Shown here: in pieces, positions 2,983 through 56,104 of the stretch | How positions within the stretch are numbered: position 1 is the stretch's first letter | Layout: every line of letters begins with the position of its first letter | Origin: a virus | Strand: one strand, 5' to 3' | DNA: 64,000 bases | Virus record (IMG/VR): IMGVR_UViG_3300023196_003770 | Coordinates: 1-64,000 of that record | Notes under the pieces: model-generated | Told to the model about the DNA's origin: nothing | The model's input: only the letters and a program-made list of their open reading frames with translations | The model's database searches: none | Position numbers and translations under genes: made by a program

Positions 2983-3013
2983 AAGAAATATTGATATAAG
3001 GTAAAGCACTTGA

Positions 3014-3088
3014 TAGCCCCAACGGGGTATGATCCCGTAGTCTCACGCCTTGAAAGGGCGGTGATTTAGCCAATTAATCTATGGAGCC
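3014..3088 (-). tRNA. tRNA-Glu (TTC)
   Basis: Minus-strand cloverleaf. Acceptor GGCTCCA/TGGGGCT includes two G-T pairs, the D arm is GATT...AATC, and the anticodon loop CTTTCAA with anticodon TTC sits on a CGCC/GGCG stem. T stem ACGGG/CCCGT is intact, but the loop is ATCATAC, lacking the usual TTC. The unusual T loop and wobble-rich acceptor may mean reduced function or a phage-specific variant. Confidence 0.8.
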
Positions 3089-3158
3089 AGATGATGATTA
3101 AATATAACAAGTAACCAACAATTTGTAAACTCATTTTTATTCAATCATCAAAAAACAA

Positions 3159-3897: not shown

Positions 3898-5211
3898 TCA
3901 ATCCGAATTTGACTTTAGTGTAGGGAAGAATACTACATCACGTAGATTAGGAACGCCACAGAGAAGCGAAACCATTCTATCAATTCCAAAGCCAGCACCA
4001 CTCTGAGGAGGAATGCCATGCTCCATGCATTCAAGGAAATCTTCCTCAATCATCATAGCTTCATCATCGCCATTGGCACGCTCCTGCATCTGTTGTTCCA
4101 ATAGCTGACGTTGTAGAACCGGGTCTGTAAGCTCCGTATAACACTTAACCACTTCCCAACCATCCACAATAAACTGCCATTGCTGTACCGTATTAGGATC
4201 GTTAGAGTGTCTTGCCGCCATAGGAGACATATGAGCAGGATAATTTGTAACAAAAATAGGATCAATAAGCTTTGGACGAACCGCAGTCTTAAACAACAGA
4301 TCCGCTTCCTTAGCACTCATATCATCCGGATAACGTCCAGTATGCTCATTAAACAACTTACGATATTCTACAATCGGTGCCTTATGCCAAGCTTCAAGCT
4401 TTTCCTTAATGTCCTGATTGTGAGCAAAGGTATTATGCAGCCTATAAATCAAATCTCTAAAAAGCTTCATATTGTCGCAATAATCCCAATACGAAGCATA
4501 CCATTCAAGAGAAGTAAATTCCTGCAAATGAGAAGGATCAATACCTTCATTACGGAACTGCTTGCCAATCTCAAATACACGATCAAAGCCAGCAGCAGTC
4601 ATACGCTTAAGATATGTCTCTGGTGCAATACGCAAATAGAAGTCTGCATCAAGAGCGTTATGATGCGTTACGAATGGACGAGCCTGAGCACCGCTTGCCT
4701 GTGGAGTTAGAACAGGAGTTTCTACTTCCATAAAGTTAGTTTCTTCAAAAAAACGACGGATAGAAGAAATCAATTCGCTACGAAAACGAAACAGCTTACG
4801 GCTTGCCGGATTAATAGCACATTCCAGCCACCGCTTACGTCGCATAAGCTCTGGGTCAGTCATGCCATGCCACTTATCAGGAAAGCCACCACAAGCCTTC
4901 TGGAGCCTCTTAAAGCCCTTGTTAACCAATACGGTGCGCTCACCCGTTGAAGACGTCCAAACCTCTCCTTGGATGCCTACAATGTCTCCGATACGAGGGA
5001 TAGAAGACCATTCCTTGAACTCCTCTTCATTCATCATCTTCTTATTGAAAGAAAATTGAACCTTTACATCGCTATTGTCTGAGATATGACCAAATGCAAC
5101 GCCGCCCATCTTACGATAAGACAATACTCTGCCAACAAGAGAAATAGGAACTCCGTCCTTGAGGTAAGTAATATCATATGCCAACTGATTATTTTCGGTA
5201 TTCCAAAACAT
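3898..5211 (-). CDS. lysS: class II lysyl-tRNA synthetase
   Basis: Charges tRNA-Lys with lysine using ATP. It has an N-terminal OB-fold anticodon-binding domain (about residues 20-115: ISLVGRVLSYR, VQFSFN, DIVGIQGEVW), so it is a true LysRS and not the truncated EpmA type. The class II catalytic domain follows: motif 1 around FFEETNFMEVETPVL, the LysRS-specific ARPFVTHHNALD and LRIAPETYLKR, motif 2 FEIGKQFRNEGID, and motif 3 GAGFGIDRM near residue 407. At 437 residues it is shorter than the E. coli enzyme (about 505) but complete. Where bacterial enzymes usually read EIANGFSEL, this reads EVVKCYTEL, changing the conserved Asn to Lys in the lysine pocket. It has hairpin terminators upstream and downstream, hence probably its own transcription unit. 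No tRNA-Lys is seen in the window. Confidence 0.93.
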   Translation of the reverse strand: MFWNTENNQLAYDITYLKDGVPISLVGRVLSYRKMGGVAFGHISDNSDVKVQFSFNKKMMNEEEFKEWSSIPRIGDIVGIQGEVWTSSTGERTVLVNKGFKRLQKACGGFPDKWHGMTDPELMRRKRWLECAINPASRKLFRFRSELISSIRRFFEETNFMEVETPVLTPQASGAQARPFVTHHNALDADFYLRIAPETYLKRMTAAGFDRVFEIGKQFRNEGIDPSHLQEFTSLEWYASYWDYCDNMKLFRDLIYRLHNTFAHNQDIKEKLEAWHKAPIVEYRKLFNEHTGRYPDDMSAKEADLLFKTAVRPKLIDPIFVTNYPAHMSPMAARHSNDPNTVQQWQFIVDGWEVVKCYTELTDPVLQRQLLEQQMQERANGDDEAMMIEEDFLECMEHGIPPQSGAGFGIDRMVSLLCGVPNLRDVVFFPTLKSNSD

Positions 5212-6887: not shown

Positions 6888-6934
6888 AAAATTTTAGAAA
6901 TATAATATTCTTTGTATTAAGTATATTGACTTAT

Positions 6935-7591
6935 ATGAAAATATTAAAACTAATAAACCAACATATTCCGATCTGGTCAATGCTTTGTGGAGATCATGCA
7001 TTGAAAGTAGTAGTTAACAATATTAATCCAAAACTGCTATCTGAACCCAATTTCCTTGATCCTTTAGAGAATAAATTAAGATTAGATATTTTTAGAGATC
7101 GTCGTGAATGGATATGGGCTTCAATGAAAGATAATGTAGCTTTTGCTCTGGTAGAAATTGACATTGAAGAACTAATGACATTCCACACATGTTTCTCAAA
7201 AGTTTCTTTTAAAGAATTTGTTGAAGAATATGCTAAAGCACATAAAAAGGGTAAAGGGTTTATTATAAAAAGACCGAGACACGGATCCGATTTAGAAAAA
7301 GGAAAAGAATCAGTTGAATATGTTTGCAAAGAACTTGCAACCAAAATAGAGGATGCATACTCCAAAATGACATTTGTATTAAAACCAAAAAATGTTCTTG
7401 ATCCTTATTTCACTAATGAAAAAAACATATACGTAGCCAGCAATCGTAGCTTAATAATGAAATGTAAAGACACTTCGAATATAAGAATAATGGATGCCAC
7501 TCATCGTTTAACTGCATATGCGGTTAGCAAAGCGAATAAAAAAAGCCCCCTCCCAAATAAACTTTATGCGTTCTATTGGGAAGAGGCTTGA
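6935..7591 (+). CDS. hypothetical protein, 218 aa
   Basis: One of two plus-strand genes. The outermost start is a TTG at 6926; the ATG at 6935 (MKILKLINQHIPIW) is more likely. Not recognised: mixed alpha/beta, soluble, Lys-rich, with DRREWIWASMKDN and a basic segment KGKGFIIKRPRHGSD. The last about 50 nt double as the tmRNA terminator read on the other strand, so the C-terminus (SKANKKSPLPNKLYAFYWEEA) is constrained by two functions. It ends 3 bp before the tmRNA 3' end. Opposite orientation hints at separate acquisition. Confidence 0.6.
   Translation: MKILKLINQHIPIWSMLCGDHALKVVVNNINPKLLSEPNFLDPLENKLRLDIFRDRREWIWASMKDNVAFALVEIDIEELMTFHTCFSKVSFKEFVEEYAKAHKKGKGFIIKRPRHGSDLEKGKESVEYVCKELATKIEDAYSKMTFVLKPKNVLDPYFTNEKNIYVASNRSLIMKCKDTSNIRIMDATHRLTAYAVSKANKKSPLPNKLYAFYWEEA
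7538..7589 (-). terminator. Rho-independent terminator of the tmRNA
   Basis: On the minus strand, just past the tmRNA 3' end, AAGCCTCTTCCCAA pairs with TTGGGAGGGGGCTT (minor mismatch) across a loop of about 24 nt and runs into TTTTTTT. It lies wholly within the 3' end of the convergent plus-strand gene. Confidence 0.8.
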
Positions 7592-7593
7592 AT

Positions 7594-7951
7594 TGGAGAT
7601 AGGCAGACTCGAACTGCCGTCCACAAGAGATCCAAATAATTTGTTGTATCACATAGCATAGCTCTTTTATAAATTACCCGCCATAAACTTAACCAAAGAG
7701 CAGATTGTATACGGCATGGTTTCAAAATTTAAGTCTTGGCAGTAGAAACTATCCCTACAAGACCGAGTTTGTTTAATATCAACCTAAAAGATCCTCAAAC
7801 GGCGTATCTTTTAAATTGCTAGCTGCGTTCAGGCTGCGAGAGCGTAAGAGTTATCGTTTGCACTTACTATTGTTTACGGTTTTAAACGGTCATAAACGCC
7901 CGTTGCTATGCAAATTATTCTTCCTTCCCGTGTCGAAACCAATTTATCCCC
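7594..7951 (-). ncRNA. ssrA: transfer-messenger RNA (tmRNA), one-piece
   Basis: A 358-nt tmRNA. The 5' end reads GGGGATAAATTGGTTTCGAC, the conserved tmRNA opening. The 3' end has a T arm (GGCAG-TTCGAGT-CTGCC) and TATCTCC, which pairs with the 5' GGGGATA to close the acceptor. The tag reading frame at 7829-7861 gives ANDNSYALAA then TGA. Its resume codon GCA is at nt 91, almost the same place as in E. coli (tag ANDENYALAA). tmRNA rescues stalled ribosomes with SmpB and tags the product for ClpXP-type proteases. No smpB is visible here, so host SmpB is presumably used. CCA is not encoded. It has its own downstream terminator. Confidence 0.95.
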
Positions 7952-12495: not shown

Positions 12496-12825
12496 TTAAT
12501 TATGCCTTTTACCTCTAATAACCATGGGGTTTTCTTTAACTATCCAGAACTCTTTAGGCAATGGAGGCTCATCACCTTCTTTAAACCACATAAGGCGTCT
12601 ACCACCTGTACTCTTAAATACTCCGATAATGGTTATCTCGCCTACGTGTATAAGATCATGACACGAATGACATACCACGGCAAGATTATGATTGTCATTT
12701 GTGCAACGTGGATCACATTTCGGAATGATATGATGGAAATTAAGAGCGGCACTTTTATCAAAACCACATATCTCACATTTATCTTTTATTAACTTTTCTT
12801 GATTAGCTTTTCTTCTGTGTTTCAT
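12496..12825 (-). CDS. HNH endonuclease, small
   Basis: A short HNH protein of 109 residues from the ATG at 12825 (MKHRRKANQEK); a TTG 15 bp further up would add five residues. Cys pair CEICG, the core LNFHHIIPKCDPRCTNDNHNLAVVC and CHSCHDLIH make a complete HNH zinc-finger nuclease. The C-terminal tail (KSTGGRRLMWFKEGDEPPLP) is unassigned. It sits between a terminator-like hairpin and the M15 peptidase gene, suggesting an inserted free-standing endonuclease. Confidence 0.8.
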   Translation of the reverse strand: MKHRRKANQEKLIKDKCEICGFDKSAALNFHHIIPKCDPRCTNDNHNLAVVCHSCHDLIHVGEITIIGVFKSTGGRRLMWFKEGDEPPLPKEFWIVKENPMVIRGKRHN

Positions 12826-12830
12826 AAATG

Positions 12831-12861
12831 GAAAACCCAAGAGACATTATATCCCTTGGGT
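12831..12861 (-). terminator. terminator-like hairpin
   Basis: On the minus strand ACCCAAGGGA-TATAATG-TCTCTTGGGT forms a 10-bp stem (one G-T) followed by TTTTC. It lies between the 108-residue gene and the HNH gene. The T run is short, so efficiency is uncertain. Confidence 0.5.
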
Positions 12862-12887
12862 CTTGAATTATAACCTATATATCTTGT

Positions 12888-13250: not shown

Positions 13251-13871
13251 TCAGAATTCAATTCCATCAACGTTAATTGTTTGATACGATAACTCAACTG
13301 CGCCTTCGCTTGGCTCGGTTTTCTCATAAGCTGCACTTCCAAAGTCAATACCTTGAATGCGAGCACCACCAAATACCCATTCAGAACTAATGTTGCCCTT
13401 TTCATCAAGCCACTTAATAGAAACCTTAACTACATTCTTCTTACAGGCTTCAAATAACTGCTTATATGGATATAACTGATTTCCCTTATCCGCTGGCATG
13501 GTATAAAAATATACCATTACCGTGCTCTTCTCTTTAATAGATTGACTATTCTTGTGTTGAGCAAAAATAATCTTCGGCAACTCTACATTCTTAATCCGAA
13601 ATGCTTCTATACCTTCAAATTGAAGAACAAAACGATCTGCAAAAACTGGCGGTCCTTCATCTTCCTTTTCTTCCTCTTCTTCCTCTTCTTCAGATGAAGC
13701 CTTCTTGCTCGTCTTTTTCCTTAGCTTTTCAAGATCCGTTGGAGGTCTTGGTTGAGGTTCTTCTTGAACTTCTTCTTCTTCTTCATCAATTGGAGGAGGT
13801 GGAATGGTTACTGTTCTACCACGACTTCGTGGAGGTCGGATTTGTGTCTTCTTTGTATTAATCGTGCTCAT
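13251..13871 (-). CDS. tail-tube-like (gp19/Hcp-type) protein with acidic insert
   Basis: A 206-residue protein in two parts. Residues 1-75 are low-complexity: Pro-rich (PPPPIDEEEEEVQEE) then a run of Glu (SSEEEEEEEEKEDEG). The rest looks like a phage tail tube beta barrel: VLQFEGIEAFRIKNVELPKI, a central variable part, VVKVSIKWLDEKGNISSEWVFGGARI, and a closing VELSYQTINVDGIEF, matching the gp19/Hcp order of a 'deformation, W-strand, final pairing strand'. The assignment is by pattern, not certain. The ATG overlaps the stop of the Mre11-Rad50 gene (ATGA), odd company for a structural protein. Confidence 0.45.
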   Translation of the reverse strand: MSTINTKKTQIRPPRSRGRTVTIPPPPIDEEEEEVQEEPQPRPPTDLEKLRKKTSKKASSEEEEEEEEKEDEGPPVFADRFVLQFEGIEAFRIKNVELPKIIFAQHKNSQSIKEKSTVMVYFYTMPADKGNQLYPYKQLFEACKKNVVKVSIKWLDEKGNISSEWVFGGARIQGIDFGSAAYEKTEPSEGAVELSYQTINVDGIEF

Positions 13872-16800
13872 ACTTCTACTTTCGATTCTAACCCGTCGTT
13901 GTAAATATCTATAATTTTATCTGCTACTTCTTTAATTGGGTCTACGTGTGTTATAACGAGTATTGTGCGGAAATATGATTTGAACATGGTCAACAGATCC
14001 ATACATTTTATCATACTATCTTGATCAAGAGAACCAAATCCTTCATCGATTATGAAGATATCTGGTCGAGATAGACTGGATAGATTGATAAGAGCTACTC
14101 GTAGTGCAAGAGAACATATCATCTTTTCCATTCCAGATGCCAACTCAATAATCCGTCTTGAATGGCTATCTTCTATGTATACATCCATTACATTAGAAGA
14201 TATATCAGTTTCCAAACTAACTGTGAAATCAACTACACTATCCAATATCTTTGCCAATTCCATGTTAATCGCTGGCAATTGGGTTTTTAATACCATTGCA
14301 GGTATACCATTTTTGGAAAATGCTTGTTGAACCGTCTCATATATCTTAAGCTTTTCCAAGTCAGATTTACACTCAATACGATCTTTTGTTAAAAGCTTAA
14401 GTTTCTCATTCTTTCCGCCAAGAGTTATAAACAAATCTCTTTGTTCACGCTCACGGGCTTCAATATGTTCCACTATAACATCAAGCGTTAATTTTCTTTT
14501 CTCGTATTCCTTACGTTCATTAGAAGACAATAGATCGCCAAGCGTCTTTTTCTCTACTTCAAGCTTTTCCAAAGTAGACTTAACAATGGAAATCTCTTTC
14601 TCTCTAACATTCTTATCTGAAATTATTTTATTTAGTTTTGTCTCCAACTCATGTTCAAGACGTGAAGCCTTTTCATCAAGCTTAAGACTTTCTGCAATCT
14701 TCTCTTGAATTAAGAATTGTGCAACTCTATCAAGCTCTGAAATGCTCTCTTGTAGCTCATTAACTTTTTTCTCTTGTGTAGGCTTAAGCTTCTTATCGGC
14801 ATGACTATCCTTTATAAAACGACAGGTTGGAAAACTATCTCCACAAGGAACAGTTTCAAGACGCTTAATAGATTTATTTTGCTGTTCAAGAGTTTCTGTC
14901 TCTTTAACAAAAGACTGTTTAAGAGAAGATAGATCGTTTTTTACACGATCAAGCTTTTCAAGCTCTTCATGCAATACCTTGATGTCATACTTTGAACGGG
15001 TATGCCTTACATTATCCAATTCGTTTTTAATGTTGCGAACAGTATTGTCATGTTCATCTTCAAGGCGCAATAGATAAGTAAGAGTTTTTTCCTTTGCTTC
15101 AATATCGTTTTTAAGTTCATTAAAACGATTTAATGAAACGGTCTGCATTACATTTTGATGTTGCATCATCCAAAGACGTAGTTCGTCACGCTCTTGAAGA
15201 TTGCTTTGCTGCATCAAAGTAATATCAGAAATCTTCTTTTCAATCTCTTCTATCTCCTGATGACCACGCTTAAGCGCCGACGCCCAATCAAATCCAATAT
15301 ACTTCTTGGTCTTTTCCGTTAATACCGAATAATCGTCCTTTGCATATACGTTCAGCTTATCAAACAGTTCAAGGTCAAGGAAACGAGATAGAATAGCCTT
15401 TCTCTGTGTGGCACCCTCTTCAATGAACTTATTAATGCCACCCTGATTTGATAGAGCAGTCATAAGGAAATCCTGGGGCTGACCAACAAGCTTACGGATC
15501 TCTCTATCGGTTTCATCCCTGGAAATAGAATTCTTTTCTATTAGCGTTCCATCTTTCTCAATCTTATATAGATTTAGAGAAGTAACGGTCTTATCATCAT
15601 CCTTCTTTGTAGGCTTCTTTGGAAAATTGCGGACTGTCTCTCTCTTAACAATATAATCTTCTCCACCAACTGAGAACGTTAATTCCGCAGAACAATGCTT
15701 CTTGTTCTTGTTAATAATATGAGCGCCTTTAAGAGAACCACGATCTGTTGTGTTAAACAAAGCATACATGATAGCTGCGATAATAGAACTCTTACCAATC
15801 TTATTAGGTCCAAAAATACCAACAATGCCTTCAAGTTCAGAAAAGCTTACTTGATTGCCTTCTCCATAACGAAATATATTATCAAACTTAAGCTTCTTAA
15901 GACACCATGACACGTCACGAACGGCATTATCAATGTCTTCTTGATTGAGACGATTGAGATAACCACGAATGACCGTAGAAGCCTCTACAAGCTGTTCCTC
16001 ATTTAAGATATAGCTTTCCTTGTGCGCCTCCACAAACTCTCTGTAAAGCCGGATTAGAGCGTCAGGATCGTTACGTAGATTGTTCTTAAGAACTTGTTCG
16101 CCAGTTGTTTCAATAGTTTCCATCCGATTGATAAGGTCATACTTGAATACAACCTCGGAAGCACCCTTATGCTCCTTGAGTTCATTTAGTAGCTGACGAG
16201 CTTCAACCTGTTGAACAGGTTGATTGCTGATAATACGAAACCGACTGCCGGGAATATATGAACGCTCCCTACGATCCTTTTCTATAGATCGTAAAGTTGT
16301 ATTTACGGTGCCAGACCAATTAATCGATACGTATGGAGCACGGTTCTCATGCTCTACAAAATCAACGTCCCATTCCTTCTCATTCTTTATATCCCAAACA
16401 AGAAAACCCTTGGTTTCCGCTTCTCCAAAGTTCTGTTGAATTAATGAACCTGGATATCCAACCCATGGCTTAGCAACACCCTTCTTATCAAGACGATAAG
16501 CAAGAAACTGTTGCTTATGAATATCACCAAGCATTGTGAAATCCATTCCCCTAAAGAATGAAACATCACGCTCACCATGTTCCATCTTCCATTCGGTATC
16601 GGTCTTGCAACCGCTAATAGAACCGTGAAACAAAGCAATGTTTATCTTGCCTTGAATTGGCTTAATAGCTTTCCAACCATCTTCATCAAATGGCGAGAAT
16701 ACATGAAGTGCAAAACGATTGCTACCCTTAACCTCTCTTGGAAGAGAATAAGTTCCAGACTTCTTATAAAGATAAGCATCTGAATGATTAATAGCATCAT

Positions 16801-17098
16801 GAATTGGCGATATGATATCTTGACGATCACTGTTGGTTAGATTACCGTCATGATTTCCAAGAATTGTAATAGATGGAGCAATATCAGCCAGACTACGAAA
16901 CATCCATGAAAGCTTCTCAATAACCTCGGGCGTAATACCTTGGGTCTTTGTATGGAAAGTATCTCCCGTGTTAATGATAAGATCCGGCTTAACTCTTCGC
17001 CTGAGAGTATCAAATAACCTTTCAAAGCTTTCAGTATATTCATCATGACGGGCAATACCACGCCAATGAATATCACTTATTTGAACCACTTTAGTCAT
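13868..17098 (-). CDS. single-chain SbcD-SbcC (Mre11-Rad50; gp47-gp46) nuclease
   Basis: A 1076-residue protein joining both subunits of the recombination nuclease that T4 encodes as gp47 and gp46. Residues 1 to about 250 are the Mre11/SbcD phosphoesterase: QISDIHW, NTGDTFH, LGNHD, LFHGS and GDIHKQQF carry the metal ligands. From about 405 comes the Rad50/SbcC ATPase: Walker A GPNKIGKSS (430-438), Q-loop region, two long coiled coils around a possible zinc hook (Cys752 and Cys759, spaced C-x6-C), signature LASGMEKM and Walker B IFIIDEGFGSLD (about 1013). It resects DNA ends for recombination-dependent replication. There is no frameshift and no internal stop; the fusion is continuous. It is followed by the tail-tube-like gene and preceded 4 bp away by primase. 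Confidence 0.92.
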   Translation of the reverse strand: MTKVVQISDIHWRGIARHDEYTESFERLFDTLRRRVKPDLIINTGDTFHTKTQGITPEVIEKLSWMFRSLADIAPSITILGNHDGNLTNSDRQDIISPIHDAINHSDAYLYKKSGTYSLPREVKGSNRFALHVFSPFDEDGWKAIKPIQGKINIALFHGSISGCKTDTEWKMEHGERDVSFFRGMDFTMLGDIHKQQFLAYRLDKKGVAKPWVGYPGSLIQQNFGEAETKGFLVWDIKNEKEWDVDFVEHENRAPYVSINWSGTVNTTLRSIEKDRRERSYIPGSRFRIISNQPVQQVEARQLLNELKEHKGASEVVFKYDLINRMETIETTGEQVLKNNLRNDPDALIRLYREFVEAHKESYILNEEQLVEASTVIRGYLNRLNQEDIDNAVRDVSWCLKKLKFDNIFRYGEGNQVSFSELEGIVGIFGPNKIGKSSIIAAIMYALFNTTDRGSLKGAHIINKNKKHCSAELTFSVGGEDYIVKRETVRNFPKKPTKKDDDKTVTSLNLYKIEKDGTLIEKNSISRDETDREIRKLVGQPQDFLMTALSNQGGINKFIEEGATQRKAILSRFLDLELFDKLNVYAKDDYSVLTEKTKKYIGFDWASALKRGHQEIEEIEKKISDITLMQQSNLQERDELRLWMMQHQNVMQTVSLNRFNELKNDIEAKEKTLTYLLRLEDEHDNTVRNIKNELDNVRHTRSKYDIKVLHEELEKLDRVKNDLSSLKQSFVKETETLEQQNKSIKRLETVPCGDSFPTCRFIKDSHADKKLKPTQEKKVNELQESISELDRVAQFLIQEKIAESLKLDEKASRLEHELETKLNKIISDKNVREKEISIVKSTLEKLEVEKKTLGDLLSSNERKEYEKRKLTLDVIVEHIEAREREQRDLFITLGGKNEKLKLLTKDRIECKSDLEKLKIYETVQQAFSKNGIPAMVLKTQLPAINMELAKILDSVVDFTVSLETDISSNVMDVYIEDSHSRRIIELASGMEKMICSLALRVALINLSSLSRPDIFIIDEGFGSLDQDSMIKCMDLLTMFKSYFRTILVITHVDPIKEVADKIIDIYNDGLESKVEV

Positions 17099-54499: not shown

Positions 54500-56104
54500 T
54501 CACTTAATATTGATCAACTTGTTAGCAGGAGCTGGATTAATACCGGTAAGCTTCCAACGCTTAAGAGCACCGGTTTCTTTCCTTGTCTTATAATCTTCTA
54601 CACACTTTAACATCGTATCATGCCAGCTTTGAACCATATTTTCATACTTGAACTCATGGTCAAGATATTCAGCAGCCTTCTCTCTAAACTCTGCCTTCTT
54701 CTCAGGCGTCCAACCATATACTTCCATAAAAGCATCTGCCACTTGACGTTCCGTGCAATAGTCTTCAAAGATATAAGGAACCATTTGTGAACCAACCAAT
54801 GAACGCTTTGCTGGTTCAATAGCAACGCCGTATTGATAACCATTGCGATAATCTTCTGCTTGACGTGTTTCGCCACCGGTCTTAAGAGCAATGATTGGCT
54901 TGCCAACCTGTAATGAAATAAGAGTAGAAAGACCAAACCCTTCATTCTTAGCTATGTTAACACAAACGTCTGCAAGGTTATGCATAACATTCATTTGTTC
55001 AAATTGAAGACGATCATTTGAGAACCAAACGTTATCGTTTAATCCAAGCATATCAGACACGGCAAGAAGATTTGGACCTTCCATATCATTTGGATCTGTA
55101 TGCATGATTAGTACTGCATTACGGTGTCCTTCTTTCTTCTCAAGGTCATCAAGAAAGGTCTTCCAACCAAGAAGAACATCGTTTGGCATTTTGCGTGTAG
55201 CATTACGATTAATCCAAAGAGCCTTAAACCAGTCAGCTTTTGCGCCAAAGTTCTGTTGCTTAAGATGATTAATTTGTTCTTCTGGAAGAGGGTTATAAAC
55301 CTGCTTTGGGAATGTATGGGGAATGTAGTTAGTCTTCTCTGGGAAATGAGGTTTAACCATTTCAAACGTTTTATATGAAAGGCAATTGATTAGATCGGTG
55401 CTTTCATACCATGGGAAGTTAAATGCTGGATATGGATCATTATCCCAAACGTGCCAATAGACGATTGGGCATACTTGATGGATTTCATCTTCCATTTCCC
55501 AAAGCCACGTAAACTGACGAGGATCTGTAAACAAGAAAATTGCGTCTGGTTGTTCTGTAATAAGAAGCTGACGAATGAGTTCCTTGCTTCCAAAGCCGTC
55601 TACAGGCTTTACAATGAAGTCAGGATTGACAGCTATCGTATCATACTTTGCGTGCTTCATAGCGCCGCCTAAGCAGCGGAATGACCATTGACCGGTCTTG
55701 ATAAGACCATCAATCAGGAAACGTGCTTGGACGCCTACACCCGAGGGAGCTACATAACTTATATTATTTCTAATATAACCAGACTATATCATCATATGAT
55801 TATCATATGCTGGGCGCTGTCGGATCATTACCATAAGCTTTTAAGCTTTTAGGTTAACCGTAGTCGTTGAACCTTTCTCACCGTTTCCGGACAGAGACTT
55901 GGCTGCTGATTGTCCAATCATCATATTTTTTAAACATTCACGTTTGTCGTTTCCAACTGCGTTGTAGTATATGATACTTAAGGAGTTTCCAGCAATTCAC
56001 CCAGTTTTACATCCACTAACTCAACTCAATGGATGATCACTTAACGTGATTACTTTATATTTCTTTTTGAAATTGAATGCGGTCAAGAAATCATTATCAC
56101 TCAT
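54500..56104 (-). CDS. GT-B glycosyltransferase gene split by a group I intron
   Basis: Exon 1 is 56029-56104 and exon 2 is 54500-55749; the join gives 441 residues. Exon 1 encodes 25 residues from MSDNDFLTAFNFKKKYKVIT to LSDHP plus the first base of the next codon, and exon 2 continues SPSGVGVQARFLIDGLIKTG, restoring the Gly-rich nucleotide-sugar loop in frame. The rest of the protein has the two-domain GT-B build with NEGFGLSTLISLQVGKPIIALKTGGE as donor-binding region. Without splicing, exon 1 stops at TGA two codons into the intron. A Shine-Dalgarno AAAGGAT precedes exon 1. A second, truncated copy of exon 1 lies upstream at 56998-57063. Confidence 0.85.
55750..56028 (-). ncRNA. group I self-splicing intron, 279 nt
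   Basis: All four conserved group I elements occur in order on the minus strand: P AATTGCTGGAAA (55986-55997), Q AATCAGCAGCCAAG (55898-55911), R GGTTCAACGACTA (55861-55873) and S GATGATATAGTCT (55781-55793). P1 is CATCCATTGA/TTAGTGGATG, with the splice-site U pairing G as expected; exon 1 ends in that U and the intron ends in G. A 3-bp P10 (GAG with exon 2 CTC) is possible. No ORF lies inside. Splicing restores the reading frame, which is independent support for the boundaries. Confidence 0.9.

Follow-up and report, generated by a model that had tools for sequence, protein, structure and literature searches.

Genes for tmRNA (ssrA) have been described in mycobacteriophages Bxz1, Catera, Wildcat and others and in Bacillus phage G (PMC4131195), and 402/18,146 phage genomes, about 2 percent, carry one (PMC9004378). 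Given that figure, the initial annotation of the locus described here was fair in calling phage tmRNAs uncommon. Methylophage Melnitz likewise has ssrA without evidence of integration; its tmRNA consists of two pieces in permuted order and comes with a glutamine riboswitch (PMC9004378). Huge phages encode a ribosome-rescue RNA together with SmpB (PMC7162821). In Carsonella, the gene that enters the tmRNA is smpB itself, and maturation should yield a non-stop message; this was the only earlier case of a gene running into a tmRNA known to the authors of that work (PMC4131195).

We analyzed the first 64 kb (the window) of an IMG/VR record of 89,093 bases, for which a complete one-piece ssrA with the frame ANDNSYALAA-stop and a resume codon at nt 91 had been annotated. 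The sequence confirmed this description, as did ARAGORN, which predicted a complete one-piece tmRNA of 358 nt, and Rfam RF00023. The covariance search proposed with the annotation gave a significant full-length match, from 7951 to 7591 over model positions 1-374/374, at 111 bits (E 1.6e-42; gathering score, 47 bits), and thus two independent detectors agree. The match to the one-piece model is collinear, which excludes a two-piece permuted order and sets this tmRNA apart from that of Melnitz; both phages lack signs of integration. In contrast to the tmRNAs of Bxz1, Catera, Wildcat and phage G, it has a proteobacterial-type tag, contains the stop codon of its neighbor and has no blastn match in any annotated phage record. 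The features of the locus are as follows (L numbers denote loci of this analysis).

7594-7951, minus strand: one-piece tmRNA (ssrA), ending at A73; same locus in L003, L004, L005, L007, L008 and L009
7944-8318, minus strand: 124-aa gene; its TAA stop (7944-7946) coincides with tmRNA nt 6-8
7945-7951, minus strand: 5' strand of the acceptor helix P1, GGGGAUA; G3 pairs with U70
7872-7904, minus strand: PK1, both stems
7829-7861, minus strand: tag reading frame, nt 91-123, GCA AAC GAT AAC TCT TAC GCT CTC GCA GCC TGA, encoding ANDNSYALAA and stop
7771-7812, minus strand: PK2, both stems
7733-7763, minus strand: PK3 region, first stem only
7661-7715, minus strand: PK4, both stems
7602-7618, minus strand: T arm GGCAG-UUCGAGU-CUGCC with canonical loop; T stem 100 percent paired in relatives
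7594-7601, minus strand: 3' strand of P1, UAUCUCC, and discriminator A73

For pseudoknot folding, another check proposed, both stems were located for PK1, PK2 and PK4 and the first stem for PK3; three parts of P2 were also located. The acceptor has 7 bp (GGGGAUA/UAUCUCC), and the elbow is canonical, with the T loop UUCGAGU and GG in the D-loop. G3-U70 and A73 are identity elements for alanyl-tRNA synthetase; the window tmRNA has alanine identity predicted from both, and G3-U70 is retained by sequence in 7/7 tmRNAs. The 3' end does not encode CCA, and AATT stands in its place. Equivalents of A86 and U85, whose roles in tmRNA have been described (PMC2481249), lie 4 and 5 nt upstream of the resume codon in all seven.

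The relatives, gathered by terminase similarity, are independent viral contigs whose terminase identities are 72-92 percent. Six of them (L003, L004, L005, L007, L008 and L009) retain the order terminase, dCMP deaminase, HNH, 124-aa gene and tmRNA. On a MAFFT alignment of the seven tmRNAs, the structure derived from the window had 88.3 percent of cells paired, compared with 39-48 percent when partners were slid. Both sides had changed in 35/78 pairs, compared with 8-13 in the slid controls and 16.7 on average in shuffles, indicating that the tmRNA is maintained; taking the structure from the window makes the slid control somewhat favorable, though the double changes fall in the other sequences. 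MAFFT displaces the 5' ends of L007 and L008 by one column, and their acceptors were judged by eye: GGGCCGG/CCGGUCC and GGGCCAG/CUGGUCC, respectively, are fully paired and keep G3-U70. The tag frame is intact in 7/7 tmRNAs; ARAGORN misread the L008 tag and missed the L004 and L009 tmRNAs.

Two relatives with 89 percent terminase identity, L006 and L010, have no tmRNA at this site, where the 124-aa gene is followed directly by the convergent gene and the gap runs almost exactly from the first base of the tmRNA to its discriminator. No tmRNA was found elsewhere in these contigs, both of which are short. Given that the more distant L007 and L008 carry the tmRNA, loss in L006 and L010 is the simpler reading, and the clean absence indicates that the gene is dispensable in some settings. 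The convergent gene of the window (6926-7591, plus strand; 221 aa, function not assigned) ends 3 nt from the 3' end of the tmRNA; its homologues lie in the same place in L005 and apparently beside the empty site in L006 and L010. In both tmRNA-less phages, the terminase is followed directly by a gene for 294 aa that may encode a homing endonuclease (L006, 5685-6569; L010, 4935-5819).

The record encodes a terminase, a primase, an SbcC-like protein, a dCMP deaminase and HNH proteins, which indicates a large tailed phage and upholds the earlier placement of the gene in a phage; on this gene content, we assign the tmRNA to an uncultured tailed phage. The nearest annotated record, Microcystis phage Mel-JY01 (39 percent terminase identity), has no tmRNA above the cut-off. 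The proteobacterial-type tag suggests, as far as a tag can, a proteobacterial host. SmpB (PF01668), described previously as not visible in the window, has no match in the whole 89-kb record or in eight relatives, all nine being possibly incomplete records, and this distinguishes the locus from those of the huge phages. Given that SmpB was found in 0/9 records, the phage tmRNA most likely relies on host SmpB. Other genes of the window include a class II lysyl-tRNA synthetase-like protein (3898-5211, minus strand; PF00152, E 4e-76) with an OB anticodon domain, whose best matches in annotated phages are about 37 percent identical, and a 1076-aa protein (13868-17098, minus strand) in which a metallophosphoesterase-like N terminus is joined to an SbcC-like part and at least 80 percent of which is covered in only one annotated phage record, Mel-JY01. 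Group I introns were found at 55760-56053 (minus strand) of the window and in L009 (17880-18076) and L010 (13461-13659), the latter two interrupting a tRNA-Asn gene.

As in Carsonella, an upstream gene runs into the tmRNA, an overlap that the initial annotation had not noted. The end of the 124-aa gene reads ...AAA AGG GGA TAA, and its stop falls at tmRNA nt 6-8 in 5/5 close relatives (the window, L003, L004, L005 and L009); L004 and L009 use TGA as the stop, with G7-C66 in place of the A7-U66 pair. In a set of 121 tmRNAs whose 5' end could be located, a few of them one gene seen in two loci, these five alone have the overlap (0/116 others); in L009, one extra G precedes nt 1 and shifts the computed overlap value to 9. 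RNase P generates the 5' end of tmRNA. Cleavage at nt 1 should therefore deprive the 124-aa message of its stop codon and, judged from the sequence, render it non-stop. The protein completes its conserved domain ahead of the overlap, and the extension amounts to about six residues. The protein is predicted to form a beta-barrel; structure comparison gave weak matches to OB/cold-shock-like proteins (Z ≤4.4, Foldseek E ≥0.08) and matches to uncharacterized phage proteins. It had no significant match in Pfam or PHROG. We considered the protein as a substitute for SmpB, which Pfam, PHROG and structure matches do not support, and the absence of SmpB among the matches rules out nothing. Unlike in Carsonella, where the overlapped gene is smpB itself, the gene here encodes an uncharacterized 124-aa phage protein.

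The tag of the window carries just two substitutions relative to that of E. coli, E4N and N5S, in agreement with the earlier remark that it is nearly the E. coli one. It keeps AAND..Y and ALAA, inside the SspB and ClpX modules of the tmRNA tag (PMC8512704). The claim that the tag would send products to host proteases holds for its ClpXP-type character; the action on products is a prediction. The relatives have ANDSSYALAA (L003, L004, L005 and L007), ANDSTYALAA (L008) and ANDSSYSSYALAA (L009). The last arises from a 9-nt in-frame addition in the L009 tmRNA (12518-12881) and is laid out like an engineered degron, AANDENY-SENY-ALAA, whose degradation by ClpXP is no worse than that of the normal tag (PMC8512704). 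Among the matches listed, 80 AND..YALAA frames were on viral contigs, 32 from bacterial isolates and 48 from metagenomes. Position 4 was E or D in 32/32 of the listed isolate matches and S, N, T or Q in 26/48 of the listed metagenomic viral matches; given that phages, proviruses and common descent are mixed together in the metagenomic set and that the scan lists at least 80 matches, this difference in the acidic residue is an observation and not a rate. In Pseudomonadota genomes, position 4 was acidic in 56/59 tags and non-acidic in 3/59. An own copy may, as the initial annotation suggested, answer a need for more ribosome rescue or for a tag variant. We rejected ANDNSYALAA as a phage-only tag, since 3/59 Pseudomonadota matches carry it; the tag of the phage therefore need not differ from that of its host. 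Some tmRNAs with AND..YALAA tags appear to be two-piece and circularly permuted: in L061, L090 and L109, a CCA-ending acceptor 3' end immediately precedes the 5' half. L155, within a bacterial MAG yet resembling a phage gene, and the large phages behind L042, L054, L059 and L089 perhaps also have permuted two-piece tmRNAs.

Two siblings depart from the canonical elbow. In the L004 and L009 tmRNAs, the D-loop has UAG in place of UGG and the T loops read UGCGAAU and GGCAGUA, a rewiring by coupled changes (A18/G55 and G54/G58). Between L003 and L004, nt 51 to 200 are identical, whereas similarity falls to ~70 percent over the first 50 nt and roughly the last 55 nt; the flanking DNA is mostly 82-100 percent alike. 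Psi55 has been termed universally conserved (PMC4810234). We took a census of the elbow in 252 distinct tRNAs from the loci of this analysis, with two bacterial tRNAs as the comparison. Positions 54 and 58 changed jointly in 10 tRNAs (A54/U58, n=9; G54/G58, n=1), while 54 changed alone in three and 58 alone in none; 4/4 tRNAs with G55 have AG instead of the D-loop GG, and one tRNA with U56 has GA in the D-loop, which is A19. The tRNA-Glu of the window (3012-3089, minus strand) is A54/U58. Further tRNAs with noncanonical elbows lie in L009 (14884-14960), L008 (18200-18274 and 15488-15562), L163, L167, L170 and L137, and the tRNA-Met of L177, L179 and L181 also has a noncanonical coupled elbow. 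Several of the variant tRNAs are homologous to each other, and the events are thus fewer than the cases. A literature search returned no paper on coupled elbow changes, which is weak evidence of novelty.

We considered whether the tmRNA is a working phage gene at all. ssrA is a common integration site (PMC4383910), and many IMG/VR matches to ANDENYALAA resemble host ssrA beside proviruses; however, a piece of host chromosome, whether prophage edge or contamination, is highly improbable given the synteny from terminase to tmRNA in independent viral contigs, the unencoded CCA and the clean empty site in L006 and L010. The loss in those two phages could also be taken to indicate a decaying or inert copy retained by chance, as could the lower Rfam scores (98 and 76 bits) that accompany the elbow changes in L004 and L009. 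We regard decay as unlikely, since the helix changes are compensatory, the tag frame is intact and G3-U70 invariant throughout, and the elbow positions change in a coupled rather than random fashion, which argues against simple decay.

The purpose of the tmRNA could also differ from general rescue. Its main role might be regulatory, with maturation cutting the 124-aa message and the tag removing or limiting the protein, as with ArfA. The stop inside the tmRNA in every close relative and in no other tmRNA examined, together with the precedents of Carsonella smpB/ssrA (PMC4131195) and arfA (PMC10107115), points in this direction, but the 124-aa gene survives with its own stop in the tmRNA-less L006 and L010 and ends 13-18 nt ahead of the tmRNA in L007 and L008, and we find such a main role rather doubtful. 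Given where the gene ends in L007 and L008, tight packing could have frozen the overlap in place by accident. Alternatively, the phage tmRNA may replace host tmRNA destroyed in infection, as proposed for phage tRNAs. The coupled rewiring of the elbow in tmRNA and tRNAs of the siblings would fit this idea, as would the existence of an RNase that cuts the T loop, CdiA-CT E479 (PMC9086364), and the escape of phage tRNAs via anticodon-loop change (PMC10264068); against it, the elbow of the window tmRNA is canonical and no host nuclease is known here. Replacement seems likewise rather doubtful.

The sequence, the covarying structure, the conserved locus and the overlap are, very probably, best explained by a working phage one-piece tmRNA that uses host SmpB and makes the 124-aa message non-stop; a functional ssrA acting with host SmpB is the most likely reading of the sequence. 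The expression, charging, rescue, tagging and feedback that we infer would proceed as follows. Signals for a promoter of its own were as numerous as in shuffles, none above chance; the tmRNA would most likely be cotranscribed with the upstream genes of the packaging side. Cleavage by RNase P at nt 1 would leave a stopless 124-aa message, the product of which would be a trans-translation substrate. The phage tmRNA would borrow host SmpB, alanyl-tRNA synthetase, EF-Tu, RNase P, 3' processing and CCA-adding enzymes, enter ribosomes stalled on broken messages during infection and add (A)ANDNSYALAA, and the tagged products would pass to ClpXP-type proteases. A more speculative extension, and on balance an improbable one, is that the tmRNA is wired into the upstream gene while the clade diversifies its elbow and tag (as in L009, ANDSSYSSYALAA) along with its tRNAs, escaping host enzymes that recognize or cut the elbow.

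In summary, phage tmRNAs are already known and the window adds another, ordinary in kind but unusual in arrangement. The overlap, the frequent lack of an acidic fourth tag residue among the metagenomic viral matches listed and the rewired elbow of two siblings go beyond what was known. Why phages carry tmRNA is an unsettled question, and this clade provides comparisons at one locus: with and without tmRNA, canonical versus rewired elbow, and normal versus lengthened tag. The stop overlap offers a direct test of whether a phage controls a neighboring gene through tmRNA maturation, and the coupled changes in the tmRNA and tRNAs would extend phage tRNA evasion of RNA-targeting defenses from the anticodon loop to the elbow.
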